Below are positions 579 to 64,000 of a DNA stretch of 64,000 bases, piece after piece (within the stretch, counting starts at the first letter, position 1; every line of letters starts with the position of its first letter). The notes under the pieces were generated by a model, which was not told the DNA's origin, made no database searches, and was given only the letters and a program-made list of their open reading frames with translations. The translations under genes and the position numbers were made by a program. This DNA is from Boothiomyces macroporosus (Eukaryota; Chytridiomycota; Chytridiomycetes; Rhizophydiales; Terramycetaceae). The stretch lies in NCBI GenBank assembly GCA_027604185.1, contig JADGKB010000055.1, positions 1 through 64,000 on the forward strand. Direction: 5' to 3'.

Positions 579-1367
579 ATGAACGATAAAGTAAAAGCGG
601 CACAAGAATTCCATGTGTTTTTCAATACTCAGAAACAAGATATCACAGCGTTAGTAGAAAAGAAGGATCTTGTCAAAGCCAAACTCGCTATTTCTAATTT
701 AACTGCCAAGATTACTGATGCGGGTCTATTTCTTCCCTCCTATGACCAACAGAAATACATGGCAGTAGGTGAATATTAATCCTAGGGAATTAAAGAGCTG
801 GATCAAGCGATAGCTGGTGTGTCTACCAGGAAGAAATTCAGTTTCAAAAAGAAAGATTCAGAATCAAAGGCAGCAGTGGCTGTTGAGTCGGACAAGCCAG
901 TAGTAGAGACTGTTGTTGAAGCGCCCATGAATATTAGGATGAACGAAGATATTATAATTCCGGAATCAGTTACTGATTTAGTACTGGAAAATTTAGACCA
1001 CTGTTCCGTTATTGTACAACACACTCTCACTTCATTGCATTTAAAGAATGTAAAAAATAGTGTAGTGGATGTCATTGTGGAAGGCAGTTCAATGATTCAG
1101 AATATCGAGCATTCATTCATCAAAATCTCGTGCTGGCAGTTGCGATGCCATGACTCTGACCGTGTCTTGCTAAAAACCACTTGCCGGTCCGACCCAATTA
1201 TTGAAGACTGCAAGAATATGGTTTTCAATCAAGTGAATATTTTTTAATTTCAGGGAAACATTCAAGATTTCAACTGGCACAAACAGTCCAAATCCCCAAA
1301 CTACAAAATTGCCGAATTTGACGATTTGGGGCTTGAAGATTTGTCTAGAATTGAATCCTATTTGTAA
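579..1367 (+). CDS. Tubulin-folding cofactor C (TBCC)
   Basis: Exons 579-764, 786-1232 and 1254-1367 give 248 aa; both introns are 21 nt. The N-terminal ~75 residues form the charged helical region typical of TBCC. A basic Ser/Lys linker follows (FSFKKKDSESK), then the C-CAP/TBCC beta-helix from about residue 115. The WQLRCH segment holds the arginine that acts as a GTPase-activating finger on tubulin in this family. TBCC completes the cofactor A-E pathway that releases native alpha/beta-tubulin dimers in the cytosol. Both introns carry an in-frame stop if retained, so the reading depends on splicing. Only 43 bases separate its stop from the next ATG. Confidence 0.88.
765..785 (+). other. 21-nt spliceosomal intron (example)
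   Basis: The intron begins GTAGGTG and ends TATTAATCCTAG, between codons for ...KYMA and GIKELDQ... of cofactor C. Retention gives a TAA within five codons; removal restores one continuous cofactor C frame. It represents the dominant intron class of the window: GT start, TAAT/TAAC a few bases before a terminal AG. Confidence 0.88.
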
Positions 1368-1410
1368 ATCAGAATATAGACTTTATGCAGCCAATTTTTT
1401 ATTTTTTTTC

Positions 1411-2832
1411 ATGAATCTCAACTTTGTCATTGTGACAAACGACAAGCAAGAAGCCGAGTCTATTCAGGTACAAAATTTGGATATCAAGCCGTTTAAAACA
1501 GTCGGACAAGCGATATGCTGGTATTTTTGCAATTTCTACTACCAGTACGTACCTCGTTATTCGATCCAGATAGACCAGCAGCCTCTCAATCCGTATACCC
1601 CCTTAGATGGATTACTTGCAGATGAAGATTGTGACCCAAAAATCATTGTAAAAATATTACGGCAGGATTGTCTTATTATTATGCGAGATATTACAACTGG
1701 AGTACTAGATGGAGTATTTGAACTCGACGATCCAGAGTTTGAATCTAAATATACTTCTAGTATTACTTGCAAACCATCGTTTGTTGAATGTTGCTTCATT
1801 GGCAGTGAAATGGTACCACTGATGGTCAGCAATCTGGATAATTGTACATTTTTCCACGTTAGCGAATTCGTGTTTGATACTAATTCTGCAATACTGGGTG
1901 AATTCAATATTGATCCGGCAAGTTTTTGGAGCGCCGATACTTCATATGCGATATTACAGAGCTTGATTTACTATCGAAAGGTGGAAAAAATTGAATTTCC
2001 AGTCCATGAAACTAAAGAATTCCTAGAGCTATTGGGATTTTTAATCACGGGAAATACTAGGTTAAGAAATATCATTTTGTATGGGGTGTCTAGTAGCATC
2101 ACGCTTGATATATTGTCAAACGCTTTGAAAGGAAACACTAGTGTAGAATCGATATTTCTACAAATTAATGACCGCTCCAACGACATTGAACTTTGTCATA
2201 TTAAAGAATTACTTTATTCCATAGTGCCAAATCCCAGCTTTCAATATTTCTATGTTACAAAAAGATTTCAAGGAGATGATATAGAATTACAAGCGATATT
2301 CAATCTTCTTGGCAAGTCGTACATTAGATATTGTGGAATATCTTTGAATAACAGCATGGAATTTCTTTCGTATTTTGCGCTCAAGAGTACAACTGTAATA
2401 TACCCTATGACAGTTAAATTCATGGTTGATGAAGGTGTTCTGGACGAAGAAAATGTATATAATCGTACAGGGCCTTCCGAGTTGGAAGAGCTGGGTTGGC
2501 CACTGGTTAATTCCAACGCTGAAAGCAACATACGAAGAGAAGCAAACCTGGACGAAATAGCCAGATTATTGGTGGAAATTGGAAGGAAGCTGCTGCTATT
2601 TGACTTGGATTACACTATTAAATTACAAATATTAGAATCAATTTGCAAACAATATTCATCAGTGTTCAAACCAATTATACTGGCTGTGCTGAATATAGAA
2701 ACTAGGTTGACTGAACCTCGACTGTTTAACTTTCGTAGACTTGCTAGGATATGCAATGGTAATGAGCCAGCGAATCCAAAAACTGCAAATATAGATTTAT
2801 TGCAGCAATATGATACCAGGTACATTTACTAA
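1411..2832 (+). CDS. Hypothetical protein with LRR/RNI-like central region
   Basis: A single open frame of 473 aa from the first ATG after the cofactor C stop. Family not recognised. Residues around 190-290 show the spacing of ribonuclease-inhibitor-type leucine-rich repeats (GNTRLRNIILYGV, LSNALKGNTSVESIFLQ), as in NACHT/Ran-GAP-like repeat proteins. The N-terminal ~90 residues could be a small folded domain. No signal peptide or membrane segment is seen. The 3' end is uncertain: a possible 31-nt GT...AG intron starts at the penultimate codons and would replace the last four residues by a ~30-residue tail. That length is outside the local norm, so I kept the simple stop. Confidence 0.6.
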   Translation: MNLNFVIVTNDKQEAESIQVQNLDIKPFKTVGQAICWYFCNFYYQYVPRYSIQIDQQPLNPYTPLDGLLADEDCDPKIIVKILRQDCLIIMRDITTGVLDGVFELDDPEFESKYTSSITCKPSFVECCFIGSEMVPLMVSNLDNCTFFHVSEFVFDTNSAILGEFNIDPASFWSADTSYAILQSLIYYRKVEKIEFPVHETKEFLELLGFLITGNTRLRNIILYGVSSSITLDILSNALKGNTSVESIFLQINDRSNDIELCHIKELLYSIVPNPSFQYFYVTKRFQGDDIELQAIFNLLGKSYIRYCGISLNNSMEFLSYFALKSTTVIYPMTVKFMVDEGVLDEENVYNRTGPSELEELGWPLVNSNAESNIRREANLDEIARLLVEIGRKLLLFDLDYTIKLQILESICKQYSSVFKPIILAVLNIETRLTEPRLFNFRRLARICNGNEPANPKTANIDLLQQYDTRYIY

Positions 2833-4404: not shown

Positions 4405-5189
4405 TTAACGAATAGGCTCTAACCCAGACAATGCCCGTAGTTTCTCCAATACAATAAATGTAATTACCGTATGAGGGCCGAGCTTGAACCAAGATGGAAC
4501 CCAACCCCTAAAAAACGTTAGTGGCCCTTCCTTGAACGTCGCGACTATGCATTCTCCTACATTCCTATAGCTACCATTCATATATCGGCTTTTTATCACA
4601 TCAATCGGCGATGCCACTGTGCAGCAAACAATCCCCGATATCATTGAACAGGTGAAATGTAACCACAGTCCTTCACTCATAACGGGTAGCAGGTACTTTT
4701 TCGACTGATCATAAGCCGGTAATTGACTAGAAGTAAGCAAGATTGCCCTAGCAGTGGTAGGAAGCGTTCCTCTATAAAGCCCAAAGAACCCATTCTTTTT
4801 CACTATATCCTTGAACGCCGTAAATATCGTCAAATTCCTTTCCGCCTGCAATTTAATCTTTATCAGGTCTGTAGGATTCGATATTGCCGATCCAATCATG
4901 CCGCTCAATCCCCCAGCGATAATTTTGTTGATTAATGTTGGCTCGCTTAACAGTTGCTTAATGGGGTCGTACAACCCAATGCGTAATGTCGAATAAGTCG
5001 ATTCGCGAAGTAATGCAGCCGATAGTCCTTTGTACAAGTGTCCGTTTGATATAATTTGATAAATAGAGTTTTTTGTTAGCTGTAGTCTTATTTTGATGGT
5101 GTCTAGTGGGTGTACAACTATGTCAGGAATGTTTTACTGGACGCTGCTACCATGCAACTTATCCCTCCATGAAAGAACTGATAATCCAT
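4405..5189 (-). CDS. Mitochondrial carrier, UCP/dicarboxylate-carrier-like
   Basis: Two exons, 5189-5138 and 5117-4405, split by a 20-nt intron; 254 aa. All three carrier repeats are present: HPLDTIKIRLQ in repeat 1 (visible only after splicing), NPTDLIKIKLQ in repeat 2 and SPIDVIKSRYM in repeat 3. LLRESTYSTLRIGLYDPIK and WVPSWFKLGPHTVITF resemble uncoupling-protein and dicarboxylate/oxoglutarate carriers (SLC25A10/11/14/27/30 group). It probably exchanges anions across the mitochondrial inner membrane. The protein is short for the family (usually 290-320 aa), with a minimal first loop. The substrate cannot be fixed from sequence alone. Confidence 0.82.
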
Positions 5190-8328: not shown

Positions 8329-9394
8329 ATGCAATTCCTTGCTCTCACATATCTTCTAGCACTCGCTTTTGCAATCCCGCCAACCAAATTTGCAACAGAA
8401 ATCAAGCATAATGCTGCCCCACAAGGACCAAAAGCAATCTCTTCTTTCCCAACTGCTCTAAAGCAACAAACACTGGTCCACAACATGATTTCAAAGATTG
8501 ATCCAGCTTCAATCAAAAATTACTTGGTGACCCTCACTCAATTCCCTGAACGTTACTATACTTCCCAAAATGGTGTCAAAGCTGCTAATTGGCTCATGCA
8601 ACAAGTACAAAACCTTCAATCTCAAGTATCACCAGATGCAGTATTGACTGTTAAACTATTCAAGCACCCAAAATGGATCGAACCGTCTGTGATTGCTCGA
8701 TATGAAGCCAAAAATAGTACCGGTCCTGGGGATATCCTGATTGCAGGAACACACTTTGATACTGCCAGTCATTCTGGTTTCTTTGGAGGTGACTTGAGTC
8801 GTCCAAACCCAGCTGCTGACGATTGTGCTTCTGGAGCATCTGTAATATACGAATCATTGCGCGTGTTGGTATCCCAACAATTCATTCCAAAGAGACCTAT
8901 TGAAATTCATTGGTATGCTGCCGAAGAAATTGGTAGTGGCACTTTGGGTAGTCATGAAGTAGCTGCAAACTACGCAAGCAACAAGGTCAGCGTATTTAGT
9001 AATTGTTTTTCTAATGTTAGGTTACTTGAACTTGGACCAGTCAGGTTACGTCAAGGCTGGCACCACTCCATCTATTGGTTTCATTACTGACTATACCACC
9101 AAGCCAGCAACAGACTTTTTGAGATTGACTGTAAAGGAGTATACTACGGTTACTGTAACTGGTGATGATGCTTGTGGCTATGAATGTACTGACAACGCTG
9201 CTTGGTATGACTCTGGGTACAACTCTGCCTTAGCATTTGAAGCTTCATCCTTATCAAACGCAACTCCATATAACGATCAAGTAAACGATGACGGATCCGC
9301 ACTTGACACTGTTGATACTGTAGATTTCCCCCATGTACAAGAATTTGTAAAAAATACTCTTGGATTTTTGGTAGAGCTTTCTTTGGCTCCTTAG
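8329..9394 (+). CDS. Secreted M28-family zinc aminopeptidase
   Basis: Exons 8329-8998 and 9021-9394, joined across a 22-nt intron; 347 aa. A signal peptide (MQFLALTYLLALAFA) is followed by a pro-region and the M28 catalytic domain. Seen are AGTHFDT (first His/Asp), NPAADDCASG (bridging Asp), WYAAEEIGSGTLGS (general-base Glu pair) and YLNLDQSGY (Asp). The last zinc ligand of this family is a histidine in an H-T-x-x-D motif. Here the matching stretch reads PYNDQVNDDG, with no histidine there. The enzyme would trim N-terminal residues from peptides outside the cell if active. Splicing is well supported because the exon junction rebuilds SNKVSVFSYLNLDQ. Confidence 0.82.
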
Positions 9395-9426: not shown

Positions 9427-10500
9427 ATGTTTGAAAAGAATGAAAAATCAGTTTATGACTTTGATATAGTCTTGCAAGACGATGTGGTTCAAATACCGCT
9501 TTCAAACGCTACAGAGTCACATAAATTTTCTGGAAAACTGGTTTTGGACACGAAAGAATTGCAAGATGTTGAATCTATACAGTTTAGATTTGTAGGCGCG
9601 ATAGTTTGTAAACATGGAAAAGGAGAGAGTATTTGGGTAGGAATGGACAAAATGTTTGATAAGGTCGTTACGCTATTCGAAAATGAAAGGATACCCGCGG
9701 GGAGCTATGAATTTCCTTTCCAGTTATCCTTACCTAATGGATCTCCACCAACGATAGATACTAAAAAGCTTCGTATTCAATACATGCTAGTGGCAGTCCT
9801 AGGATTTCAAAACGGCTGCTGTGGTATTCCTGTTCTTCAAAAAGATCCTATCAGGGTTCGCAAAGAAGTTTTTGTTTGCAACACAGATCTGGATATACTG
9901 TACGAGCAATCAGTAGTGGGAATCGAGGATGTAAACTTGACAGCCGTAGAATCAAAACAAAGATATATCTATTGGTCTCCAGATTCCGACTTTCTAGTCA
10001 AAATGGATCCCATTCAATACATTGACGCGGACTGGAATTTCATGGTTCAAATAGACTCCAAATCAACATTAGAATTGATCGAATGGAAGATTATCCAACA
10101 TGAAACCTTCTTTTACCAGTAAGTGTTGCTAATGTCAGAGTAGAAGAGACAGGTGCAAGGACACAAGTAAACAAGGAAAGAGCAGAAGAAATAGTTTTGA
10201 ATGAAGGCGATATCTGCGATTTCGGCGTTGCAAAGATTTTGGACAATGAATTATTCTACAACATATCAGTAAATAGCAAAAACACCGCAGGAATGCCGTA
10301 TACTCAGGTAATACAGCACTAACCAGACCGCTCCTGCCAAAATAACACACTCGCTCGAGTTACATGTACATACATCTAAAGGATCTGACGGAGATCAGTC
10401 CGTATTTACAGCAGTATTTCCTATTCAAGCAGTAATAGGTGACATCAATCTACAGTTTGACACACAAAGTTCAGAATCAACACTACGAAAACGGTTTTAA
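9427..10500 (+). CDS. Arrestin-like protein
   Basis: Exons 9427-10118, 10139-10307 and 10327-10500; introns of 20 and 19 nt; 344 aa. Residues ~10-160 form the arrestin N lobe (FSGKLVLDTKEL, IQFRFVGAIVCKHG, IPAGSYEFPFQLSLPNGSPP). Residues ~190-335 form the C lobe, ending FPIQAVIGDINLQFD. Fungal alpha-arrestins usually link transporters to Rsp5-type ubiquitin ligases through PPxY motifs. I see no PPxY here, so this may be a lobes-only adaptor or a scaffold of another kind. The reading depends on both tiny introns; without splicing it stops at 10122. Confidence 0.72.
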
Positions 10501-11260: not shown

Positions 11261-13524
11261 TTAGCGGCCTCTAAACAAAGCATGTCTCTTCTTTTCTGGA
11301 ACCTTCTCTTTCTTTGGTTCCTTCTTTCTTCTGGCTTGATTCTGCCACTCTCCAGCCAAATCGTCCACACTTGTCTCTACCACTTCATCCATACCAACTT
11401 CGTCACCCTGCTGTTGGATGATGCTCAAGAGTTCATCTTGGTCGCGCTGTTTGAAGTAGTTTAGTTTGGTCATTTCATCGTGAGGAATAAGGGAAGCGAA
11501 ATTGGGTATTACATGGAATTCGTAACCTTGATCTACAAGAAAGGTTCTTCTCTTTTGAGAAAACTGCACTTCGTCTGTATCTTTAGAAACCAGAGTGTAA
11601 AATCTAGATTTGAATCCTTCCTCGTTTCTTCTCTTTGCTCTCAAAATACGACCCATTCGTTGAGCTTCTTGGCGTCTAGACCCGAATTGGGATGAAATTT
11701 GAATTAGGCAAGTTGCTTCAGGCAAATCAAGGGAGGTATCACCAACTTTGGATAGAAATATTGTTCTAAAAGTAGGATTGTCTCCCCTTCTGAATAGGGT
11801 AAGCACTCTTGTCCGTTCTTCATGTGACGTACCGCCATAGATATATGGTCTGTTTAGTTTGACTGCATAATGCTGTAGAGCAAATACGTTATCAGAGAAT
11901 ACAATAATCTTGTCTCCCTGCGATTCTCTCCATTTGATCAAGTACTCTGTTGCCATGAACTTACTTGGATTCATTACACACAGCAATCTTCTTTTCCCGG
12001 CTTTTGAAGTACATTTTAGATATTCTTGGTAAAAGTCACCCGTCTATTTTAGTAAAGATTACCATTGGGCACCATATTTCCGTAGCTTCTACCTTGGCGA
12101 TATGACCCCTAGTAGCCAAGTCCATCCAGTTGGCTTCAAACAACTTTGGGCCAATTAAAAAGTTGAGATCATCAATCTTGTCGTCTTCACGAACAAGGGT
12201 AGCAGTTAATCCCAACTTTGTGTGAGAAGCCACTGTGGATAAGACTTTACGAAACACATTAGCAGGTACAACGTGTACTTCATCAAGAATCATTAGACCC
12301 CATTCATGCTGATTCACAAACTCAATCATCTTGCTAGTATCCATTGCTCTTTTGCCAGAATGAGATATCATAGTATATGTTGATATAACTATACCTGCAT
12401 CGCCACTAAACTTTTCTTTGCTTGAGGCAGTAAACTTTGCAATTTGATGTTCTTGAATAGTAGACCATTTTTTCAGCTCGTTTGCCCACTGCTCTACAGA
12501 TAAGGCATTTGTGCACAGAATGATTGTGGATTTTTTGACAGTACAGGCAGCTGTAATCCCAACCAAGGTTTTACCAGCACCAGTCGGCAATACAATGATT
12601 CCTTTATAAACAAATAGATACCTGATCGGGCTCTTCCAGACCCACCTCCAAACATTTTTGACAATGATTTCTCCTGGTAGTCTCTGATTATTGTTTTTGG
12701 TGATAAATCAATATCTAGATTGGCATTCAATGTATCCATTCGAAAATCATATTCCTCCATAAGAGGATATTCCTATATTAATGTAAATCACTAGCTCATT
12801 GCATCTTCTCTTTACTTCTTCTACTTTTTCTTTACTGATTTGGAACGAACATGTGAAATCACTTTCCATTTCCTCCTCTTCATCTTCCCTATCCAAAGTG
12901 ATAATTGCTCCAAATTCATCCTCCTTGATATTCAGCTTCTGTGATTCTGCTGTGGTAACCCTAGCTTGTTTGATTGTCGGATCATTCAACAAGCGTTTGA
13001 TTAAATCCGGGTAGTTGGATTCCAAATAGTACTTTGATTGTTTCAACACCTTTGATCAGGGGTAGTTACCAGTTTGATTTTCCCACAATTCTGTGTAGAT
13101 TGCTTAATGAACTGTACAATTTTATCCGGCAATTTGTTCTTGGAGAATCCGCTCAATACAGTTAAAATATCATTCGTTTGCATCCCGACAGATACTGCTG
13201 CATACAGCGAATAAGGCGTTAATTTGAATTCGTGTATTCTCGCTGGACGGGAAACTGAGTTAGAATAAAGTACCAGGCTCGGCAATGGTAATTAGAAAAT
13301 CCTGCGCTTGATACAAGAGAGGCGAGAATGCTTGGTTAATAAAGCCAACCTTCCAGGATAATCTTTCCATCATTACAAACAAACAGTGGACGGTCTTTAT
13401 GATCTGGCTGTAGAGAAAATCCTGTATAATCCTGCGCAAATAATCTCGCTACTTTGTCTCGCTTGAGATATCCTTCTTCCTCGTCGTCGTCTGGCTGTCG
13501 TTTTAATTTTAGTGTGATTGACAT
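11261..13524 (-). CDS. TFIIH 3'-5' helicase/translocase XPB (Ssl2/RAD25)
   Basis: Seven exons (13524-13350, 13330-13274, 13254-13070, 13049-12792, 12772-12622, 12601-12063, 12043-11261) with six introns of 19-20 nt; 715 aa. The N-terminal domain carries the conserved [20 protein letters not shown] stretch (split over an intron) and [17 protein letters not shown]. The core shows Walker [17 protein letters not shown] (DEVH box), [12 protein letters not shown] (motif III plus the RED motif), [14 protein letters not shown] and [11 protein letters not shown] (motif VI). XPB is the DNA translocase of TFIIH, opening promoters for RNA polymerase II and acting in nucleotide excision repair. It is shorter than human XPB (782 aa), mainly at the N-terminus. 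Confidence 0.93.
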
Positions 13525-17031: not shown

Positions 17032-17368
17032 TCTAATATAAAAAGGTAAAAATCGAAAAAATAAAGTCCGCAAAAGTATCTAGTGGACTACACCATAGCT
17101 GCTAATGGGTAATATTCAAGATGCATTAAAAAGATGTTTTCATTCACAGGGATGGATTATTCTACCGAATAAAAAGTACTTTCAGGTATGCACAAAAATT
17201 GGGGCTGGATCAATCAAAAGCCCAGTTGTAGTATATCTACTATACGCTCAACTTGATCTTTTTATTCCATTTTACAGTTGCTTTCGCTGATTCAAAACAC
17301 ACTCATGCAAGAGCGACATTGTCCCACTACATCTACTCTTCTTTTCATATCCCTTAAGCAGATACTAA
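17032..17368. other. Intergenic with a weak 61-codon ORF
   Basis: 337 bases between the kinase start and the end of the next minus-strand gene. An ATG at 17105 opens a 61-codon frame (MGNIQDALKRCFHSQ...) that may be the first exon of a small gene, but I could not find a convincing splice into a longer frame. Confidence 0.35.
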
Positions 17369-38479: not shown

Positions 38480-38493
38480 ACCTTTAGTTTTTT

Positions 38494-40272: not shown

Positions 40273-40378
40273 ATATTTGTCTATTAATAAATATTATTCC
40301 AAAATTTAGTTATTGTAATGTATTTTTGGTTTCAAATTATCGGCATAGTCCGCGCCATCATTCCCCTATACCAGCTAT

Positions 40379-41821: not shown

Positions 41822-42115
41822 CGGAAAAATCTACTACTAGAAAGGTTTGGTTTCATTCACGGAAAAATCAAGTGGAAGAAACGCGACCTGAAGCAGAATT
41901 TTGGTGGAAAAGTTTCAATAGGAATGACCCACTATATAAAGTCTTAGGAATCTTAGATGTGTTTGCTGTGACTTTCTTTTGTGTATGTTTACCGTCTCCA
42001 TTTTGACATCAATCAAACTATTGGTGGGAAGCTAGAAAAAGCGTAGCTGAGCTCCACGGTAAGGTTTTCATTGTATTTCCGAATATAATGATCTAAATAC
42101 TGGTCGTTTATCAAA

Positions 42116-43825: not shown

Positions 43826-44007
43826 CAAACTACCAGCGATAAAATAAATGTAAATCTATGCCATTGCCCTTGATGCAATTACTTTGGTATCCAGCACTTT
43901 TGATATAGGCTCTAATTACATTGCTACCATGTAGATTTATTTCGTCATTCCGATGGTGGTGTATGGTTTTGAGCTGACGTAACATTCTCATAGTTTGTGC
44001 AATATCA

Positions 44008-51355: not shown

Positions 51356-52452
51356 ATGATTGCCACCACGAGTTTCACCATCAACAAGAATGACATCAAG
51401 GCAACCGCGATCACAAAACACAGTATCTCTGATATTCCTTCCAATGCGATTTTGATTCAAATAGATCGTTTTGGGTTCTCATCAAACAATGTTACCTATG
51501 CGCTGTTTGGAAAGGCAATGCAGTATTTTGACTTTTTTGAAGCAGGAAATGGTTATGCTCACTTGCCCATTTGGGGAGTCGGGACAATAATCAAATCTAA
51601 TAATGATCAATTAAAAGAAGGTGAAAAGGTCTATGGATACTTTCCTACAGCTTCACATATAATACTTGAACCTGTAGGGATTAAAATTGACTCATTTAAA
51701 GTAATCAGAGACCAATTGCCAGCAGATCGCGTAGTTTACAACACCGTAATCCAAATCTAATCTAGTATCACAGAGAAAATGTTGATCCAGAGTATTCAAG
51801 CGAATTTGAAAGCTTGATGCTACTATTCAGACCTTTATGGACCACTTCGTTCTTTTTAAATGATTTTCTTGAAGCTAAATTTGACAATGTCCGATCCATA
51901 GTTATTTCTAGTGCTTCTAGCAAGACCGCGTTCAGTTTGGCATTATTGTTGAAAAAAAGAGGCATCAAAGCAATTGGAATTACCTCTAAACGCAATGAAG
52001 AGTTTGTAAAGCATTTGGGTTTCTACGATAAAGTGGTATGCTATGACCAAATCTCCCAACTAGAAATTGCAGATTGTGTGTACTGTGACTTTGCTGGTGA
52101 TTCGAACTTGAATTCTCAATTGTTTAGTCATTTTGGAGATTGTTTACAGAAACACGTCGTCATTGGGAAAACGCATGTCGAAAGTGGTCCGTCAGGGGAA
52201 AAGAATCCAAGGACTGTATTCTTTTTTGTTCCAGAATGGATACTTAAACGCACTCCAAAGCCAAATGAAAATTTGGTAGAAACCAAAGTCAAGGAATGGA
52301 AGACATTTTTACAGTTCATTCAGCCGTTTGTAGATATAAAGATTAGCACCAATCCGGGTGATTTGCAAGCTGTTTATCTTGAAATGCTAAAAGGAAGCTT
52401 CTCTCCCAGCGATGGCTTTATATTCTCACTAGTAACCAGCTCTCATCTATAA
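51356..52452 (+). CDS. DUF2855 family protein
   Basis: Exons 51356-51745 and 51766-52452 (20-nt intron); 358 aa. Matches the DUF2855 pattern: FGFSSNNVTYALFGKAMQYFDFF, LPIWGVGTI, EGEKVYGYFPTASHIILEP, then LLFRPLWTTSFFLNDFL, VISSASSKTAFSLALLL, GITSKRNEEFVKHLG and VYCDFAGDSNLN. The fold resembles medium-chain reductase/quinone oxidoreductases, but the usual catalytic and NADP motifs are weak and the biochemical role is unknown. The intron sits at the joint between the two halves; splicing gives VYNTYHRENVDPEY. Confidence 0.82.
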
Positions 52453-52573: not shown

Positions 52574-53781
52574 ATGAGAAAATTTCTCTCACATCTCCCA
52601 ATGCAACGCATTCGTCAATCGTCAGCTCTATTCTCCAAATTCCATATCAGACATTACTCTACTCCAAACCAGCTCACCGTCCGTGAAGCTTTGAACCAAG
52701 CAATGGAAGAGGAAATGCGTAAAGATGAAAAAATATTCTTGTTGGGAGAAGAAGTTGCCCAGTATAACGGGGCATATAAGGTAGGCTTCGATTAACGTTA
52801 GGTACAGTCAAATCTAATGAAAAGGTCTCCAAGGGATTGTTGGAAAAGTTTGGACCAAAGAGAGTTATCGACACTCCAATTACAGAAATGGGTTTCGCTG
52901 GTTTGTGATTGTTTAACGCAGGTATCGCTGTCGGTGCAGCTTTGGCTGGATTAAAACCAATTTGTGAATTTATGACCTTCAACTTTTCCATGCAAGCTGT
53001 CGATCAAATTGTCAACTCTGCAGCAAAAACCAGGTTGGTTATAATTAACGCTAGATATATGAGTGGTGGTACTGTACATTGTCCAATTGTATTTAGAGGC
53101 CCTAATGGAGCTGCCGCTGGTGTAGCTGCTCAACACTCACAATGCTTTGCCGCTTGGTACGGATCTGTACCTGGATTAAAAGTCGTTTCGCCATGGAACT
53201 CTGAAGACGCAAAAGGTAAAATTTAAAAATAATTCTAGGGTTAATGAAGGCTGCTATTCGTGATCCTAACCCTGTTGTAGTTTTAGAAAATGAAATCATG
53301 TACGGAAAATCATTCAACGTGAGTAATGAAGTCTTGTCAGACGAATTTGTTATTCCAATTGGAAAAGCCAAGATCGAGCAGGAAGGAAGCGATGTTACAA
53401 TCGTAGCACACTCTTTGGCAGTTGGACAATCCTTGGAGGCAGCTGAAGAGTTGGCAAAGAAAGGTAAATCCCATTAATATAGGTATCAAAGCTGAAGTTA
53501 TCAACTTGCGCTCAATCCGCCCGCTTGATATCGATACTATTATTGCATCTGTCAAAAAAACTAATCACCTCGTTACTGTTGAAGGTGGATGGCCTCATTT
53601 CGGTGTAGGTGCTGAAATTGTTGCACAAATTATGGAAAGTGAAGCATTCAACTATTTGGATGCTCCAGTTTTGCGTGTAACTGGTGCTGATATTCCTACT
53701 CCATATGCTGCTAATTTAGAAAGATTTGCTTTCCCACAAGTCCACAACGTTGTCGAAACAGTTGAAAAATTGTTGAAATAA
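52574..53781 (+). CDS. PDB1: Pyruvate dehydrogenase E1 component subunit beta, mitochondrial
   Basis: Exons 52574-52780, 52825-52900, 52922-53033, 53055-53215, 53239-53463 and 53483-53781; 359 aa. A basic presequence ([15 protein letters not shown]...HIRHYST) leads to [46 protein letters not shown] and [12 protein letters not shown]. Then come [32 protein letters not shown] and [15 protein letters not shown]. With E1 alpha it forms the TPP-dependent heterotetramer that decarboxylates pyruvate in the matrix. Introns are 21, 21, 23 and 19 nt, plus one 44-nt gap that is exactly two short introns end to end (see separate entry). The thiamine pyrophosphokinase gene nearby makes its cofactor. Confidence 0.93.
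52781..52824 (+). other. Two abutting introns (21 + 23 nt) or one 44-nt intron
   Basis: The gap between exons 1 and 2 of the E1 beta gene. Bases 52781-52801 form a typical short intron (GTAGGC...TTAACGTTAG). Bases 52802-52824 form another (GTACAG...TCTAATGAAAAG) with no exonic base between. Both match the local consensus in length, 5' end and branch-like motif. Removing the whole 44 nt joins AYK to [14 protein letters not shown] as in all E1 beta proteins. Confidence 0.7.
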
Positions 53782-54193: not shown

Positions 54194-54786
54194 ATGGTAA
54201 GTCAAACAACTGCAACATGAACCAAGGACAGAACTAATTCAACAGGCAGAAAAATCCTCCAACCCAATGAGAGAACTCCGTCTCGAAAAATTATGCCTTA
54301 ACATCTGTGTAGGTGAATCTGGTGATAGACTTACTCGTGCTGCTAAAGTATTAGAACAATTGACCGGACAACAACCAGTTTTCTCCAAGGCTCGTTACAC
54401 TGTCAGAACCTTCGGTATCCGTCGTAACGAAAAAATATCTGTTCACTGCACTGTTCGTGGACCAAAGGCTCAAGAAATTCTTGAACGTGGTCTTAAAGTC
54501 AAGGAATTCGAATTAAAGAACAGAAACTTTTCATCAACTGGAAACTTTGGATTCGGGATTCAAGAACACATTGATTTGGGTATTAAATATGATCCTTCCA
54601 TTGGTATCTATGGTATGGACTTTTATGTTTGTATGACCAGACCAGGTATGAAGGTTGCCAAAAAGAAGGCCAAGGCTGGACGTATCGGAGCTCCACACCG
54701 TGTTACTCCTGAAGACACCAAACTCTGGTTCAAAAAGACTGTAAGTTTATGATTAACTCTAGTTTGACGGTATGATTCACAAGTAA
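54194..54786 (+). CDS. RPL11: 60S ribosomal protein L11 (uL5)
   Basis: Exons 54194-54196, 54246-54740 and 54763-54786; 173 aa. The first exon is only the ATG, followed by a 49-nt intron beginning GTAAGT; exon 2 then reads [19 protein letters not shown]. Conserved segments include [64 protein letters not shown] and GRIGAPHRV. The last intron (22 nt) leads to the ending FDGMIHK. uL5 binds 5S rRNA on the large subunit. An intron at or near the start codon is common in fungal ribosomal-protein genes, and here it is one of the few long introns of the region. It ends 43 bases from the convergent TPK gene. Confidence 0.93.
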
Positions 54787-55721: not shown

Positions 55722-56317
55722 TTAAAGTTCTGGTTTAACAATGTTGGCCTTTTCTGAAACATAGACACCATCCAAGAATTTACGGATATCCTTGTTTTTG
55801 ACGGTACAAGCATGGCGAATCTTAGCAGCTGGACATTAGTCAACAATTTACCTGATTGGGAAACGTTTTGGATATCATTTCCGGTCAAAATCAATTCGTC
55901 CTTTTGAGCATCAGACAAAACGATTTGAACTCCTTCCATCATAGGGATTCTACGAGTGTACTTGTCACCCAAGAAGTTTCTAATTTCGATATGGTCTTTG
56001 GCATCAGAAATGTTGGCGTTGATAGGAAAGTGCGCATATACGAAACGCATTTTGTATTCAAATCCAATAGTGACACCCTTGATCATGTTTTCAATGTGGG
56101 AAGCTACAGTACGGATGCAAGCAACATGTTTGCGACCACCGTGCCATACCTTGACTCTAAGTGTCTTTTCTCCGACGAATTTAAGTTCCATAGGAATGTG
56201 CTTCAAATCCTTTTTCAATTCACCTCTTGGACCAGTGACGGTGACAACTCTGGATTGAACCTTGACAGTTACATCAGCTGGGATGGTGATATCCTTTTCT
56301 TGTGAAATATACTTCAT
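55722..56317 (-). CDS. RPL9: 60S ribosomal protein L9 (uL6)
   Basis: Exons 56317-55852 and 55828-55722 (23-nt intron); 190 aa. Starts [18 protein letters not shown], with [37 protein letters not shown] and [12 protein letters not shown] as in eukaryotic uL6. After the intron it ends [21 protein letters not shown]..., the normal C-terminus. Unspliced, the frame runs on into unrelated residues. uL6 sits near the sarcin-ricin loop and factor-binding site. It is divergent from DNMT2, and the ribosomal-protein promoter element lies between them. Confidence 0.93.
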
Positions 56318-56506: not shown

Positions 56507-57597
56507 ATGAATGCGTTAGAGTTCTTTTCAGGTATCGGGGGAATGGTATTTTCTGTTAACCACAGCATTACGGGATGGATTGGGCTGGTATTGACGCCAA
56601 CGTTCTTGCGGCATTTGATATAAATCCGAATGCTAATCACTGCTACCATCATAATTTCAGCATACATCCGATACAGAAAAACATACAAGGGGTTACTGTA
56701 AAACAGCTGAACAGTTACAATGCCGATATATGGCTGTTATCGCCCCCTTGCCAGCCGTACACACGCAGTAACTAAACTTAATGTAGCTGGGAAGCAGCTA
56801 GACGACCAAGATCCAAGAGCGCAAGGATTACTGCATTTAATTTCTTGTCTGGAGCATATCAATCCTCCAAGATATATATTCCTGGAAAACGTGGTTAATT
56901 TCGAAATTTCAAATACCAGGAACATTCTGGTTGCTCAATTGTGCAAGCTGGGATACAGCTTTAAGGAGTGGATAATATCGCCGACTCAACTTGGTATACC
57001 TAACGACAGACCGAGATACTATCTGACAGCCGTAAAGGCATATGGTACTCTGCAAGAAATCCCAGAACAAGGTATAATACGAGAGTGGACTTATCCACAA
57101 TTATATCCCCCAGGAAAGACTGTCGGAGACTTTCTAACTGATAATGCAGTTGGGTGTGATATTCCTAAACAAATATATGCAAGCAGGCAATCCTTTGACA
57201 AACAAGTGATTGTCCATCCTTCAGATACTAGAACTAGTTGTTTCACCAAGGCATATGGCCACCATGGAGTAGCTTCTGGTGGATATTTGCAAACCAAACT
57301 GTTGGACCAAGATGTAGCAGAATTGCTGCTTGATAGTACAGCAGCAGTAGAACAGCTGGGTCTCCGTTTCTTTTCACCGTTAGAGTAATAAACCTTAACC
57401 GTAGAATAGCTAGGCTGCATGCTTTCCCTATTGATGCTAAAGCATATCCTCCTCACATTCACCCAAAGCTAAAATTTGAGCTGCCAAGTGAGTTGACAAT
57501 ACAGCAACAATGGAAAGTATTGGGTAACAGCATGTGCGTAGCCGTAGTCGGCGAAGTTATGCGACATGGTTTTGATATTAATAAAAAGTGTGAATAG
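56507..57597 (+). CDS. DNMT2/TRDMT1-type tRNA (cytosine-5) methyltransferase
   Basis: Exons 56507-56545, 56566-56767, 56787-57384 and 57405-57597 (introns 20, 19 and 20 nt); 343 aa. Motif I LEFFSGIGGMHYG spans the first intron. Motif IV is SPPCQPYTR with the catalytic Cys; ENVVNFE is motif VI and QLGIPNDRPRYY motif VIII. The target region ends GVASGGYLQTKLL, and motifs IX-X are assembled by the last intron (SPLEIARLHAFP..., LGNSMCVAVVGEV). Dnmt2 methylates C38 of tRNA-Asp and related tRNAs rather than DNA. Length is usual (~340-390 aa). Confidence 0.92.
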
Positions 57598-57764: not shown

Positions 57765-60700
57765 ATGGGAGAACTGCTACCTATCCGTTTCCAAGAACAT
57801 GTTCAAGTAAAAGGTTACTAAATATCAGCTACAATCATTAGGAATCAATGCTGCGAACATTGGATTCAACACTTTGACCATGGAATCAGACAAGTACATT
57901 TGTGTTCGTGAAAAAGTCGGAGAACAGAATCAAGTGGTAATTATCGATATGAACAATCCGCAAGGACTTCAACGTCGTCCTATTACTGCAGATTCTGCCA
58001 TCATGAACCCTGTGAACAACATTATTGCCCTTAAAGGTAAGCGTTGTTAATAGTAGCTGGTCGTCAATTACAGATATTCAATTTGGAACTGAAAGCAAAG
58101 GTAAAAGCGCATGTCATGAATGAAGATGTGGTATACTGGACCTGGGTCGATGAGTTTATGCTCGGTTTGGTAACAGACACTGCTGTCTTCCACTGGTCGA
58201 TTGAATCTGATTCACCACCAGTCAAAGTATTTGATCGCCACGCTTCGTTAGCGGGATCTCAAATTATCAACTACAAAGTAAATGCTGAAAAGAAATGGAT
58301 GGTGCTCATTGGTATTTCTGCAAATCAAGGAAGGGTCGTTGGCAATATGCAGCTGTACAACAAAGACAGAGGGGTATCTCAACCACTTGAAGGACATGCT
58401 GCTTCCTTTGCCAGCCTTAAATTGGATCCATCATCCCCTGCAAATAAGCTCTTCTCTTTTGCTTCCCGTGGTCCTAATGGTGCCAAATTGCATATTATCG
58501 AAATTGACCACGTTGATGGACAACCGATATTCCAAAAGAGATCTGTTGATGTATTTTTCCCACCAGAAGCTGTAAACGATTTCCCAGTTTCTATGCAAAT
58601 CAGCAGCAAGTATGATATCATCTTTTTAGTAACAAAGTTTGGTTTCATTCACTTGTACGATCTGGAAACTGGAACTTGTATCTACATGAACAGAATCAGT
58701 GGAGATACAATCTTTGTCACTGCAGATTTGTTGGGAGCTGGTATGATTGGTGTAAATAGAAAGGGTCAAGTAATCATTACTTAATGTAGGTCTTATCTGT
58801 CTCTGTCGATGAACAGAGCATTATTTCTTACATCACCCAAAACCTCAACAATTTGGAGTTGGCTTTCAAACTTGCAACAAGAAACAACTTGCCAGGGGCT
58901 GAAAATCTTGTTGTTGAGCGATTCAATCAATGCATGGCTATGGGTAACTTTGCGGAAGCTGCTAAAATTGCTGCTACCTCCCCAAAAGCGATCCTCAGAA
59001 CCCCAGCCACGATTGATAGATTCAAGCAATGCCCAGTCATGCCAGGACAAGTATCACCAATCTTGCAATACTTTGGTATTCTTTTGGAAAAGGGAGAATT
59101 AAACAAGTACGAATCCCTCGAGCTGGCTCGTCCTGTTCTCCAACAAGGTCGCAAAAACTTGCTTGAAAAGTGGTTAAAGGAAGACAAAATTGACTGCAGC
59201 GAAGAGCTTGGTGATGTAGTTAAGCAATTTGATCAAACTTTGGCTCTATCTGTTTACTTGAGAGCCAACGCACCAGCAAAAGTTGTATCCTGTTTTGCTG
59301 AAACTGGACAATACAACAAGATTATTCTGTATGCTCAAAAAGTTGGTTATCAGCCAGATTACGCCTATCTTCTTCAATTTATCATGCGAACTGATCCAGA
59401 CAAGGGTGGTGAATTTGCAACTCTTCTTATCAACAACGAAGGTGGACCGTTGGTAAAGATTGAAAGTATTGTTGATGTTTTCTCCTCACTCAACATGGTT
59501 CAACAATGTACTTCGTTCTTGTTGGATGCTTTGAAGGAAGATAAGCCAGAACACTCTGCACTCCAAACACGCCTATTGGAAATGAACCTTTTGCACGCGC
59601 CTCAGGTTGCAGATGCTATTTTAGGAAACGAAATGTTCCATCATTATGACCGTGCCTATATTGCTGGGTTATGTGAAAAAGCAGGACTTTTCCAGCGTGC
59701 TTTGGAACACTTTACTGACACTTACGATATCAAGAGAACTATTATCCACACCCACTTACTGAATCCTGAATGGGTAATCAATTACTTTGGCCGTCTTTCT
59801 ATCGAACAATCGCTAGATTGCCTTCGTGAAATTCTTACTCACAACCTGCGTCAAAACCTTCCAATTGCAACCAAGATTGCCACAAAGTACTCTGAACAAA
59901 TCGGTGCATCTAAATTGATCCAACTATTCGAAGATGTCAAATCATTTGAAGGATTGTACTTTTTCCTTGGTTCAATCGTCAACTTTAGCCAAGAACCTGA
60001 AGTTCATTTGAAATATATTCAGGCAGCTTGTAGAACTGGACAATTGAAAGAAGTAGAACGTATTTGCCGTGAAAGTAACTGCTATGACCCTGAAAAGGTC
60101 AAGAATTTCTTGAAGGAAGCAAAACTCCAAGATCAGATCCCTTTGATTATCGTCTGCGATCGTTTCAACTTTGTACATGACTTGGTGCTTTACTTGTACC
60201 AAAACGGAATGACCAAATTCATTGAAATTTACGTGCAAAAGGTCAACTCTGCAAGAACTCCTGAAGTTATTGGTGCTTTGATGGATGTTGATTGTGATGA
60301 TAATATTATCAAAAACTTGCTGTTGTCTGTTACCGGACCAATACCAGTTGATAAGCTGATCGAAGAGACTGAAAAAAGAAACAGATTAAAGATTGCTTTG
60401 CCATGGCTTGAATCTAAAGCTCGCGAGGGCTCAACCGACCCAGAAGTGTATAACGCCCTTGGTAAAATTTACATTGATACCAACAATAATGCCGAACAAT
60501 TCTTGCGCGAAAATCAATTCTATAATTCCCTAGTAGTCGGTAAACACTGTGAAAAGAAGGATCCATACTTGGCATTTATTGCGTATATGCGAGGACAATG
60601 TGATTTGGAACTCATTAAAATTACTAATGAAAATGCAATGTTCAAGCAGCAAGCTAGATATTTGGTTCAAAGAAGAGATCCAAATCTCTGGGCGATGGTA

Positions 60701-62917
60701 TTGACTCCTGACAACCAATATCGCAGACAAGTGATTGACCAAGTAGTTTCAACCGCTCTTCCAGAAACTCAAGATCCTGAAGATGTCTCTATTTCTGTAA
60801 AAGCTTTCATGGCAGCAGATTTACCAAACGAATTAATTGAACTGCTCGAAAAACTTGTTCTTGAAGGTTCATCCTTTAATGAAAACAGAAACTTGCAGAA
60901 CCTTTTGATTTTAACAGCTATCAAGGTAAAGATATTGCTAATTGTAGGCCGATAAAAGCAGAGTCATGGATTATATTCGTAGACTAGATAACTTTGATGC
61001 ACCAGATATTGCTGGAATCGCAGTTGGCAGTGAACTTTATGAAGAAGCCTTTGCAATTTACAACAAGTATCAACAACACGGAGACGCCATGTCTGTCATT
61101 ATCACATATATCAAAGACATTGGCAGGGCTCAGGAATATGCCGAAAAAGTTGATGTAGCTGAAGTTTGGTCAAAGCTTGCTAAAGCACACCTTGACTTGT
61201 CATCAGTAAATGAAGCAATTGAATCGTACTTGAAGGCAGCTGACTACAGCAATTACGCTGAAGTTATCCAAGTTGCCAACAGTACAAACAAGTTTGAAGA
61301 ATTGGTGAAATTCTTGCAAGTCGCTCGCAAAACTGTTCGTGAAGCTCTGATTGAAAGTGAGCTGATTTACGCTTTTGCAAAGACTGGCAGATTGGTAGAA
61401 TTGGAAGATTTCATCACCTCTCCTAATTTGGCCAATGTTTCTGCTGTTGGTGACCGTTGCTTTGACCAGAAAATGTATGAAGCCGCCAGAATTCTGTTTA
61501 GCAGTGTGTCCAACTGGGCTCGATTGGCAACTACATTGGTTTACCTTGGGGAATATCAAGCTGCAGTTGATTGCGCAAGAAAAGCAAACGCAACCAAAGT
61601 ATGGAAGGATGTTAATGCCGCATGTGTTGATAACAAGGAATTCCGCCTAGCTCAAATTTGTGGATTGAATTTGATTATTCATGCTGATGAATTGACTCAA
61701 ATCATTCAGTTATATGAGTTCAGAGGATATTTCTCTGAATTGTTACAACTCTTGGAAACCGGTTTGGGACTTGAAAGGGCTCACATGGGTATGTTTACTG
61801 AATTGGCAATTCTGTACTCAAAGCACAAGCCTGAAAGCTTGATGGAACATTTAAGACTCTTCTGGCAAAGAATCAATATTCCAAAGGTCATTAGAGCATG
61901 TGAAACTGCCCACTTGTGGTCTCAGCTGGTATTCTTGTACACCAAATATGATGAAAATGACAATGCTGCTCTAACTATAATGGCCCATTCAGCAGTTTCA
62001 TTTGAACATACTACATTCAAGGATGTTATCGTAAAAGTTAGCAATCTGGAAATTTATTACAAAGCTCTTCGTTTCTATCTAGAAGAACAGCCACTAATGA
62101 TCAACGATCTGCTTGTTGTTTTGACTCCTCGTATTGATCACACTCGTGCTGTGCAGTTGTTCCAAAAGACAAACAATTTACCGCTCGTAAAACCATATTT
62201 GGTATCTGTTCAGCAAACAAACAATGCAGCAGTTAATTCAGCCTATAATGATTTACTCATAGAAGAAGAAGATTTCAAATCTCTTCGCGACTCTATTGAT
62301 AATTTCCCCAACTTTGATAACCTTGCATTAGCTCAGCGATTGGAAAAGCATGCTCTATTGGAATTCAGAAGAATTGCAGCACATTTGTACAAGAAGAACA
62401 AAAGATGGGAAAAGTCTTTGGATCTGTCAAAGAAGGACAAATTATTCAAGGATGCTATTGAAACAGCTGCAGAATCAAAAAGCGCAGAAGTTGCAGAAGA
62501 CTTGCTATCTTACTTTGTCAAGGAAGGAAGAAAAGACTCTTTCACTGCCTGTCTGTATGCCTGCTACGATCTTTTACGCCCTGATGTTGTTATGGAAGTT
62601 GCTTGGAGAAACGGTTTGCAAGATTTCGCAATGCCATACTTGATTCAAGTCGCAAGAGAGACTTTTACCAAGCTCAAGGTTTTGGAAGAAGCAGATCAAC
62701 AAAGATCTACCAAAGAAGCGGAAAAGGCAAAGCAAGGTAGGCATTTATTAACGTAGAATCTGTTGATTTGGCAAGTATGGGCGGCCCACTTATGCTGACT
62801 TATGGTGCCCCAACTCCCCAACCACAGTACGGTGCAACTCCAATGATGAACCAAGGCACTCCTATGATGGGCCAGAATATGACTGGCCAGCCATATGGCG
62901 GATTCCAAAACTACTAG
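57765..62917 (+). CDS. CHC1: Clathrin heavy chain
   Basis: Exons 57765-57806, 57829-58036, 58057-58769, 58790-60925, 60948-62736 and 62757-62917; introns 22, 20, 20, 22 and 20 nt; 1682 aa, the normal length. The N-terminal beta-propeller starts [24 protein letters not shown] with [11 protein letters not shown]. The rest is the repeated alpha-zigzag of the leg (for example [30 protein letters not shown]). The trimerisation and tail region holds GGPLMLTYG, equivalent to the QLMLT Hsc70-binding site but with Pro for Gln, then a Gly/Pro/Gln/Met tail. It forms triskelia for endocytic and Golgi vesicles. The 3' splice at 58056 uses the second of two AGs, giving [12 protein letters not shown]. Confidence 0.95.
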
Positions 62918-62980
62918 TCTTTTTTAAAATAAAAAAATCATCAAAGTTGGTTTTTAACTTTTCGCGCCAAATCAAAACTT

Positions 62981-64000
62981 ATGTTTGCACTTTTACTTTC
63001 CTTGATAAAAGCCCAGTCTTTTATCCAATACGATATTTCAGAATGTATCCCAATATACGGCACAGACGCCTTTCAAAATCCGGGTCAAGTTCAAGTAACT
63101 CTGCAGCCGTTAAAACCAAACGGTTCCTTGGCTCTGGGAATCTTCCCATACTTGGAGCGAAACCATCTTGCTTTCACTCCAGACCCAAATTTCAAAGATT
63201 ATTTGATTTGTAATGAAGACTATATTAAGCAAGAATTATGTTCGGAATCAGAACTGGGCAGATTTCATATAATTAGAAACTCTACAGCGATACAAAATGA
63301 TAGGATTCAGTGGCAGATGGCCGGCACTTTACAAGCATCCAGCGCAATTGGAGCTAAAATAGTTGTTCAGGAAACCGCAAATCCAAGGAGAATGATTTTG
63401 AAATATCCGATTAAACAGACAGATTTTTATTGCATGTACTTGTCATCTAATACCTTGGAAGATGAACAGGATTACATTGTAGATTTCACGATAGTTAATC
63501 CTTATGGGTATTTACCTGCAATCTACTATCCTGCGCTTCCGTTCTTTGCAATTATGTCTGGATTCTATACGTTTATTGGAGCGTGTTGGATGTACGTCTC
63601 TTTCCGGTATTGGAAAGATTTACTTTTGATTCAGCACTATGTATCTCTAGTAATTGCATTCTTGATTGTGGAAATGGCGTTCAATTATTCGTTTTTCTCT
63701 GATTACAATTCCAGTGGCCGTATAAACTACTTTTTGCTAGTAATAACTGTAGTTTTAAACGCAGCCAGAAATTCAATTTCGTTTTTTATGTTACTGATTG
63801 TAAGCTTGGGATATGGAGTTGTAAAGTAAGAGTATGCTAAAATAGACCTACGTTAGGAGAAGTTATGAATACTACTGTGTATTTGGCTGTTGCGCACTTT
63901 GTATTTGGAGTACTATATGGAGTTGGTGCGCTAATTTCAGAGGATGCCAATTCTGCCCTGGTTCTAATTAGTGCTATTCCGCTCTCAATGACAATGACTT
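62981..64000 (+). CDS. PTM1/GPR107/TMEM87-like Golgi seven-TM protein (partial)
   Basis: Exon 1 62981-63825 and exon 2 from 63846 to beyond the window end, joined across a 20-nt intron. A signal peptide (MFALLLSLIKAQS) leads to a ~190-residue lumenal domain, then the LU7TM bundle: YYPALPFFAIMSGFYTFIGACWMYVSF, HYVSLVIAFLIVEMAFNYSFF, SSGRINYFLLVITVVLNAARNSISFFMLLIVSLGYGVVKPTLG. These are the hallmark segments of yeast Ptm1 and animal GPR107/GPR108/TMEM87, which act in Golgi trafficking. The intron falls inside the Lys codon of GYGVVKPTLG, the most conserved motif. The remainder of the bundle is outside the window. Confidence 0.85.

Follow-up and report, generated by a model that had tools for sequence, protein, structure and literature searches.

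Ultrashort, near-uniform introns and head-to-tail intron arrays predicted in sampled contigs of the chytrid fungus Boothiomyces macroporosus

Introduction

Introns comparable in length to those considered here are known from ciliates, from the chlorarachniophyte nucleomorph and from mikrocytids (PMC10245619). In the ciliate Stentor coeruleus introns of 15-16 nucleotides (nt) go together with canonical small nuclear RNAs (snRNAs), a Cwc25 protein without the GGG plug and an Isy1 protein whose N-terminus is not conserved (PMC9505925). Among fungi, an intron survey calls the introns of Cryptococcus, with a mean of 63 bp, relatively short (PMC8476143). Here we analyse a 64,000-nt stretch of the chytrid Boothiomyces macroporosus (assembly GCA_027604185.1, contig JADGKB010000055.1, positions 1 to 64,000; hereafter the window) together with samples from elsewhere in the assembly, and describe a class of predicted introns of 19-23 nt that in places are arranged head to tail in uninterrupted arrays. 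Statements made below about published systems hold for the parts of the cited accounts that were consulted.

The chytrid introns resemble those of Stentor in being near-uniform, ultrashort and apparently U2-type, in the canonical pairing segments of the accompanying snRNAs, in the distance of about 5 nt from the branch A to the intron end, and in an Isy1 N-terminus that is not conserved. Unlike the introns described here, those of Stentor measure 15-16 nt, place the branch A at nt 10-11 and have a weak branch consensus; the Cwc25 GGG plug that Stentor is without is present in the chytrid, and the arrays found in the chytrid have no counterpart in the consulted part of the Stentor account (PMC9505925). 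A narrow length range is also seen in chlorarachniophyte nucleomorph introns (18-21 nt) and, again at an extremely short size, in those of mikrocytids (16-17 nt). The nucleomorph, however, is a relic nucleus with >800 introns in about 300 genes, whereas the chytrid introns belong to a fungal nucleus for which we extrapolate about 14,000, and Mikrocytos mackini, unlike the chytrid, is a parasite with 224 introns and a strongly reduced spliceosome (PMC10245619). Ordinary fungal introns are likewise spliceosomal, the dominant chytrid class measuring about 20 nt as against the 63-bp mean of Cryptococcus (PMC8476143).

With regard to the arrays, the closest parallels lie in two other phenomena. Abutting AG|GT sites are shared with animal recursive splicing at zero-nucleotide exons, although stepwise removal is only proposed for the chytrid (PMC5126111, PMC8605326); the animal sites lie inside long introns, whereas the chytrid units are complete introns of ~20 nt, up to eight of which abut (PMC5126111). 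Fungal stwintrons similarly combine two canonical introns in a single interruption, with successive removal as a feature of stwintrons and as a proposal for the chytrid, but the stwintrons of ascomycetes are nested, the inner intron interrupting an element of the outer one, and the chytrid units stand head to tail (PMC8469720).

Our searches of the open-access literature gave no report of ultrashort introns in chytrids, nor of head-to-tail arrays of ultrashort introns, and reports may exist elsewhere. Judged against that literature, ultrashort introns as such are already known, and it is their occurrence in a chytrid and the array architecture that appear to be new. In our reading these segments are very probably nuclear U2-type introns compressed to a near-uniform 19-23 nt, which would be spliced by intron definition and, where they form arrays, removed unit by unit.

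Results

The assembly comprises 15.2 Mb in 216 contigs, the analysed window being contig 55. Our 268-kb sample consists of this window, 20 sampled 10-kb stretches from 19 other contigs and a 4-kb Prp8 locus (L001), which amounts to a complete reading of about 2% of the genome. Genes were modelled with a two-strand semi-Markov gene finder whose codon-pair scores were trained on the long open frames of this genome. In a flat-prior run introns of any length from 10 to 150 nt were equally allowed and only GT...AG ends were required; as a decoy control the same procedure was repeated with 12 false dinucleotide pairs in place of GT-AG. Model-free pattern searches covered the window and loci L001-L033, with the reversed sequence as control. 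Splice sites, branch points and array removal are throughout predictions from the DNA sequence and from homologues. Scans of the window for composition, tRNA genes and Rfam families gave no lead for the intron question.

With the stricter penalty, 124 of the 225 introns predicted by the flat-prior run in the 268 kb measured 19-23 nt, 68 of them exactly 20 nt, compared with 8-26 (mean 14) in the same bin for the 12 decoy pairs. No other length bin of the sample held a surplus of GT-AG over decoys: the counts were 11 versus 9-59 at 10-18 nt, 20 versus 29-56 at 24-40 nt and 70 versus 80-104 at 41-150 nt. The flat tail of 24-300 nt introns in our first models was likewise rejected for want of such a surplus. 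A looser penalty gave 153 introns of 19-23 nt out of 314. A GTAATT-like donor, a YTAAY motif and a YAG end emerged unprompted in the 124 short introns, and when motif scores were added, with no preference for length or spacing, 241 of 344 introns fell within 19-23 nt (52, 124, 40, 20 and 5 at 19, 20, 21, 22 and 23 nt, respectively), a density that extrapolates to roughly 14,000 such introns in the 15.2 Mb. In a control that scored the intron interior in reverse, 72 of 292 introns still measured 19-23 nt, because real introns are partly found via their effect on the reading frame.

The class is also visible to searches that use no gene model. The pattern GTAA[ACT]..YTAAY..YAG occurred 83 times at 19-23 nt against 17 in the reversed sequence; at 17-18 nt GTAA[ACT] donors gave 3 versus 2, and in every longer bin they fell below the reversed control. 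Donors of the form GTA[CT][ACT] were found 65 times at 19-23 nt against 16. Genome-wide, the pattern GTAAN{3,33}TTAATNTAG gave 988 matches compared with 317 for the pattern read backwards, and 87 of the 100 listed places among the 988 were 19-23 nt long. These results confirm a narrow 19-23 nt class as dominant in the sampled contigs.

The interior of these introns is similarly constrained. In the model-free searches the second A of the branch motif lay 14 nt from the 5' G 103 times (4 in the reversed control), with 49 versus 4 at 15 nt and 18 versus 4 at 16 nt, and it was rare at 13 nt (1 versus 10) and at 17 nt (3 versus 7). A recognisable branch site was present in 204 of the 241 gene-model introns, with the branch A at nt 14 or 15 in 182 of them, at nt 16 in 14, at nt 17 in two, at nt 10-12 in six and at nt 13 in none. 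The branch A is thus mostly nt 14-15, which is 13-14 nt after the 5' G. A typical unit starts with GTA, carries a YTRAY motif with its A at base 14 or 15, less often 16, and finishes with a YAG that ends 5-6 bases beyond this A. Intron position +5 is T in 46% and G in 15% of the 241 introns, and by this +5 T the 5' consensus deviates from perfect U1 pairing and is a weaker U1 match than a GTAAGT donor; an anticorrelation between exon -1G and intron +5G was looked for and not found (Fisher p = 1.0). With GT...AG ends and a YTRAY branch site complementary to the GUAGUA of U2, the short segments bear the marks expected of U2-type spliceosomal introns.

Alignments with homologues confirm 16 introns of the window, all 19-23 nt long: six in a gene for an XPB/RAD25-like helicase, six in one for the pyruvate dehydrogenase (PDH) E1 beta subunit and four in the clathrin heavy chain gene. 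The XPB-like introns, on the reverse strand, lie at 12044..12062 (19 nt), 12602..12621 (20 nt, the homologue being 2 residues shorter beside this junction), 12773..12791 (19 nt), 13050..13069 (20 nt), 13255..13273 (19 nt) and 13331..13349 (19 nt), and the spliced protein, its corrected N-terminus included, is continuous with the homologue RAD25 in the Protein Data Bank (PDB). A 46-nt intron considered earlier for this gene was rejected, as it proved to consist of the 19 nt at 13331..13349 plus coding sequence whose residues the homologue has. The clathrin introns (forward strand) are found at 57807..57828 (22 nt), 58037..58056 (20 nt), 58770..58789 (20 nt) and 60926..60947 (22 nt); spliced residues 1-1655 align with residues 1-1656 of solved clathrin chains, the alignment across the fourth junction having been seen in a second search.

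The PDH E1 beta gene, also on the forward strand, contains introns at 52781..52801 (21 nt), 52802..52824 (23 nt), 52901..52921 (21 nt), 53034..53054 (21 nt), 53216..53238 (23 nt) and 53464..53482 (19 nt). The corrected protein best matches that of Terramyces sp. JEL0728, with 312 of 326 residues identical from LTVREA on and without a gap, and its junctions are supported by five fungal homologues. The 21-nt intron at 53034..53054 has no in-frame stop and is shown by homology only, the reading frame alone being blind to it. The first two introns together form a 44-nt interruption (52781-52824), with 21-nt and 23-nt units abutting and a zero-length exon between them. A 23-nt intron placed at 52762-52784 in this gene was misplaced and hid this two-unit array, as the homologue alignment showed; it is the one error corrected by homologues among the 56 introns of 19-23 nt, out of 66 predicted in all, that an array-aware run gave for the window.

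That count bears on an earlier note on this DNA, made from the letters alone, which had placed 64 introns by hand, 61 of them 19-23 nt long; comparing totals, the 56 of 66 from the array-aware model bear it out. The note had also proposed that ultrashort introns are the dominant class, which holds in the sampled contigs (124 of 225 on 268 kb), and had named a length distribution centred at 50 nt or more as the result that would speak against it, of which we saw no sign in the 268 kb. The origin that it assigned, a fungus, is supported by the Terramyces match of PDH E1 beta and by an Isy1 protein one substitution away from that of Boothiomyces sp. JEL0838, Boothiomyces and Terramyces both belonging to the Terramycetaceae (Rhizophydiales).

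Some longer interruptions consist of two to eight complete introns of ~20 nt placed end to end, with zero-length exons between them. We list 21 such arrays, comprising 59 units that are all 19-23 nt long. Although most of these units were picked by motif-scoring patterns or models, it is worth recording that an NTRAY branch A stands at nt 14-17 in 56 of the 59, and that inner units are as good as outer ones, the branch site being present in 37 of 38 non-last versus 19 of 21 last units and +3A in 32 of 38 non-first versus 19 of 21 first units. The abutting AG|GT splice sites that are the hallmark of zero-length exons are present in the arrays. The nested architecture of stwintrons was not found in the 21 listed arrays, where whole units follow one another head to tail; no search aimed at nested cases was made.

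The largest array measures 162 nt and lies in a gene for a PWWP-domain protein (L038 831-992). By our division it has eight units of 21, 21, 20, 20, 20 (with a GC donor), 21, 20 and 19 nt; six of them lie outside the search match and were not picked by motif, and in our reading five of these six carry a branch site. A model without arrays likewise excises the entire 162 nt, and the spliced PWWP domain is continuous with HDGF-type domains, which are without three residues just after the junction. Continuity with homologues extends across six arrays in all, those of the PDH E1 beta, USP7-like, PWWP, tyrosine aminotransferase-like, GID4-like and V-ATPase G-like genes. The USP7-like array (L034 944-1025) has four units and the last three genes named have two units each. 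Further arrays of 3-8 complete units in coding genes were placed at L035 998-1054, L036 967-1025, L037 975-1075 and L053 597-677.

A genome-wide search for raw abutting pairs (GTAAN{12,17}TAGGTAN{13,18}TAG) gave 58 matches. Branch sites were present in both units of 22 pairs, in the first only in 12, in the second only in three and in neither in 21; the 22 represent fewer separate places, owing to overlaps within one array and to two copies on contigs 49 and 100. Given a placed branch site in the first unit, the second unit had one in 22 of 34 cases, compared with 52 of 1298 in reversed sequence and 171 of 802 among all real GTA..TAG stretches of that size. All 11 of the pair sites that were fetched, chosen from the 22, lie at intron positions inside predicted coding genes. 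An array model with a milder penalty found two arrays at spacer 0 in the window and L001-L033 and seven in five chosen loci, one array per set at a spacer of 3 nt, and none at spacers of 1, 2 and 4 nt; one of the two spacer-0 arrays, at L033, stems from the U2AF search locus and not from the sampled stretches. In the window and L001-L033 the two modelled arrays stand beside 313 single units, and the PDH array was missed by the model. Arrays are thus rare, at about 1% of short-intron sites when the PDH array is counted, and most were found by pattern search.

In six of 38 adjacent pairs the two units resemble each other more closely than in 95% of unrelated pairs, and one pair is identical. Since neighbours can be so unusually alike, whole-unit tandem duplication does occur, the remaining pairs being old or of other origin. 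Identical introns or arrays at matching offsets also recur between contigs 49 and 100, on contig 2 near 269.6 and 312.2 kb, and on contig 1 near 16.5 and 18.9 kb; these copies may stem from recent duplication, segmental or tandem, or from haplotypes that were assembled separately. On contig 103, at 2.5-4.1 kb and at 30.8 kb, tiny introns stand 3 or 6 bases apart (TAG-ACC-GTAA etc.), and these spacers are candidate micro-exons.

Parts of the splicing machinery were identified in the genome. U1, two U2 and U6 snRNAs were found, and in each the segment for pairing with the 5' site or the branch site is canonical: U1 starts AUACUUACCUGG (score 68.8 bits, just below the Rfam cut-off of 69.5), the U2 pairing segment is GUAGUAUCUGUUCU and that of U6 is UACAGAGAAG. 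Most differences between the two U2 genes (L022 and L023) fall in the 3' half. The genome also has a U2AF65-like gene, which contains introns of 19-20 nt; its best stretch scores 230.7 bits against a family cut-off of 310.3, as expected because the match is broken by introns. Cwc25 begins MGGGDLNLKKSWHP, its first 14 residues being identical to the CWC25 homologue of structure 5yzg, so that the N-terminal GGG plug is present and the loss seen in Stentor was not found. Yju2 begins MAERKVLNKYIPP, which we take to be an ordinary N-terminus.

Isy1, a catalytic-stage factor and not a U1 or U2 protein, is the sole deviation among the machinery parts examined. In its gene (L039 1225-2104, contig 39) the start MAPKTLAQKQEANILKK replaces the MARNxEKAxxxLxR found elsewhere, and alignment to the solved ISY1 homologue starts only at residue 34. 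Among the 120 listed of 265 homologues, 79 carry the full motif, 36 start inside it (these are probably truncated models) and five differ, namely that of this genus, that of Globomyces (MANNQKEKQKSVVHRFRE) and a further three whose starts are unrelated. The Globomyces N-terminus is partly diverged. The Isy1 protein labelled Hompol1, presumably from Homolaphlyctis and thus from the Rhizophydiales, has a normal N-terminus. Apart from the one substitution, the protein differs from that of Boothiomyces sp. JEL0838 by four residues at the first junction. Because the JEL0838 protein lacks residues at the short introns of this genome, the public gene models of the genus presumably contain such introns already, at least in Isy1. 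We regard the Isy1 N-terminus as the best candidate found for an adaptation to ultrashort introns, as a correlation and not as proof.

Two suggestions of the earlier note need adjustment in the light of these observations. It had put the 5' site ~11-13 nt from the branch point; the distance is indeed short, and the figure itself gives way to a slightly greater one, with the branch A 13-14 nt after the 5' G. It had further suggested changes in U1/U2 spacing or in their proteins, against which stand the canonical snRNA pairing segments, the presence of a U2AF65-like gene and ordinary Cwc25 and Yju2; the one deviation found, that of Isy1, is in a factor of the catalytic stage.

The remaining short introns of the window are predicted from the gene models. 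On the forward strand these are at 765..785 (21 nt), 1233..1253 (21 nt), 8999..9020 (22 nt), 10119..10138 (20 nt), 21893..21913 (21 nt), 22794..22813 (20 nt), 23098..23118 (21 nt), 28850..28869 (20 nt), 29164..29184 (21 nt), 37081..37099 (19 nt), 37134..37152 (19 nt), 37549..37568 (20 nt), 37668..37686 (19 nt), 37818..37837 (20 nt), 38049..38068 (20 nt), 51746..51765 (20 nt) and 63826..63845 (20 nt). To these are added, on the same strand, four in what we take to be an MFS-type transporter gene at 44168..44187 (20 nt), 44428..44449 (22 nt), 44483..44504 (22 nt) and 44583..44603 (21 nt), one in a presumed uL5-like ribosomal protein gene at 54741..54762 (22 nt), two in a gene that the earlier note named DNMT2-like at 56768..56786 (19 nt) and 57385..57404 (20 nt), and one at the C-terminus of the clathrin heavy chain at 62737..62756 (20 nt). 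Those predicted on the reverse strand lie at 5118..5137 (20 nt), 15097..15116 (20 nt), 17365..17383 (19 nt), 17627..17645 (19 nt), 27229..27248 (20 nt), 32421..32439 (19 nt), 32614..32632 (19 nt), 46659..46678 (20 nt) and 49819..49838 (20 nt), with two more in an M3-type peptidase gene (30120..30141, 22 nt; 30482..30501, 20 nt) and five in a CLC-type channel gene (33681..33700, 20 nt; 34476..34495, 20 nt; 34747..34765, 19 nt; 34905..34924, 20 nt; 35299..35318, 20 nt), both names being those of the earlier note, and one in a presumed uL6-like ribosomal protein gene (55829..55851, 23 nt).

Three related genes in a row at 38488-45751 are presumably MFS-type transporters; the gene model of this region joins the first of them with a gene upstream and merges the remaining two. 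At 13664-17079 what we take to be a leucine-rich-repeat protein gene stands beside a presumed kinase gene, the two resembling parts of plant-type receptor kinases.

Discussion

How might introns of this size be removed? We propose that an essentially standard major spliceosome recognises each ~20-nt unit by intron definition, in one step. The 14 nt from the 5' G to the branch A may lie close to a mechanical minimum, as the shortest loop satisfying both U6 and U2 pairing, because by our estimate only ~4 nt are left between the U6-bound and U2-bound segments. A spliceosome tuned to such a fixed window would tolerate an insertion beside an intron mainly if the insertion were itself a complete unit. 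Arrays would then be excised unit by unit, as we infer because the inner signals are maintained, so that after every removal the same 5' exon would meet the next GT, in the manner of recursive splicing. Changes in proteins extending into the active site may make room for the tiny lariat loop, and among these the N-terminus of Isy1 is the best candidate found. A bolder form of this proposal, which we hold to be evenly balanced between right and wrong, is that of a fixed ruler (14-16 nt from the 5' G to the branch A and 4-7 nt from there to the last G) with a hard lower and a soft upper wall, in which longer interruptions would be chiefly chains of mini-introns removed singly, duplication or insertion of whole units would multiply introns, and the Isy1 N-terminus would be an adaptation parallel to that in Stentor.

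That the short segments are not introns at all, representing instead frame-preserving insertions, sequencing errors or pseudogene damage, is vanishingly improbable. Some of them are indeed 21 nt long and free of stops, as such a reading would have it, but the length peak, the branch motif and its spacing far exceed the controls, the clathrin, XPB and PDH E1 beta genes are otherwise intact and match their homologues once the segments are removed, and beyond the first junction the spliced version of Isy1 fits the public Boothiomyces protein. One could also suppose that the window is an odd region in a genome that otherwise has ordinary introns of 50-100 nt, given that full reading covered only ~2% of the genome; we consider this highly improbable, since the 19-23 nt peak was obtained on 268 kb that include 19 other contigs and the genome-wide pattern matched 988 times against 317.

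A more serious competitor, which we judge unlikely while granting it some weight, concerns the arrays: these could leave in one step, each array acting as a single intron of 38-162 nt bounded by its first GT and its last AG, with the inner sites as relics of tandem duplication. The few single introns of 46-49 nt that are apparently spliced indicate that such lengths are manageable, and the near-identical neighbours (6 of 38 pairs, one identical) show recent duplication. Yet diverged units keep their 5' and branch sites at the proper spacing, with the A at nt 14-17 in 37 of 38 non-last and 19 of 21 last units, and in the eight-unit PWWP array, whose relics should have decayed, five of the six units that were not picked by motif have a branch site. 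Whether Isy1 diverged for reasons unrelated to intron size is far less clear-cut, and we give this a chance only a little short of even: Cwc25 and Yju2 look normal, one or two lineages only are concerned and drift is possible, whereas the diverged part reportedly projects into the active site and touches the intron, and is non-conserved in Stentor too (PMC9505925).

For our own reading, that of compressed U2-type introns whose arrays are removed singly, several observations are unfavourable. One set concerns length. A 46-nt Isy1 intron with a GTAAGT donor and an ACTAAT branch site looks real, the public Boothiomyces protein also being without it, and the first interruption of the same gene (L039 1259-1307), ~49 nt by comparison with that protein, contains two branch-like motifs and is not divisible into clean GT-AG units. 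A probable 49-nt intron (54197..54245, forward strand; GTAAGT donor, ACTAAT branch site) is predicted after the start codon of the uL5-like gene, and GTA[CT][ACT] donors are slightly in excess at 24-45 nt (60 versus 44 reversed). The upper length limit thus appears not to be absolute, because the 46-49 nt introns look real and there is this small excess at 24-45 nt. A possible 50-nt intron at 21395..21444 (forward strand; GTATGT donor, ACTAAC branch site) would be a further exception. A 46-52 nt class as such, with GTAAGT/GTATGT-like donors and ACTAAY branch sites, is unsupported (3 versus 3 reversed), even if two of the three look real.

The other set concerns the arrays and Isy1. The 58 raw abutting pairs are fewer than the 89 of the backwards control, and a second pattern that allowed gaps of 0-30 nt gave 39 versus 33, with gap 0 the largest class (nine), gaps 3 and 6 holding five each and gap 27 four; a surplus of arrays is visible only after filtering for branch sites and among pairs with no gap. 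The motif quality of the array units is partly a matter of construction, and the model score at the 11 fetched pair sites, higher by 2.3 to 7.7 with arrays allowed, cannot drop by construction. With the strict penalty the array model found no spacer-0 array in the unbiased sample, and one at spacer 3. Lastly, what ties Isy1 to intron size is a correlation that draws on one or two lineages.

How small the distance between 5' splice site and branch point can become is a mechanical problem not yet settled. The chytrid is culturable and saprobic, and its ordinary-looking splicing core, together with a related chytrid whose Isy1 has a normal N-terminus, lets one ask which change permits a lariat loop of 14 nt. 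The arrays, with up to eight introns and some identical neighbours, would be a visible record of duplication and would show whether the single units are under selection. Gene finders and aligners that apply the usual minimum intron length would mis-annotate such genomes.

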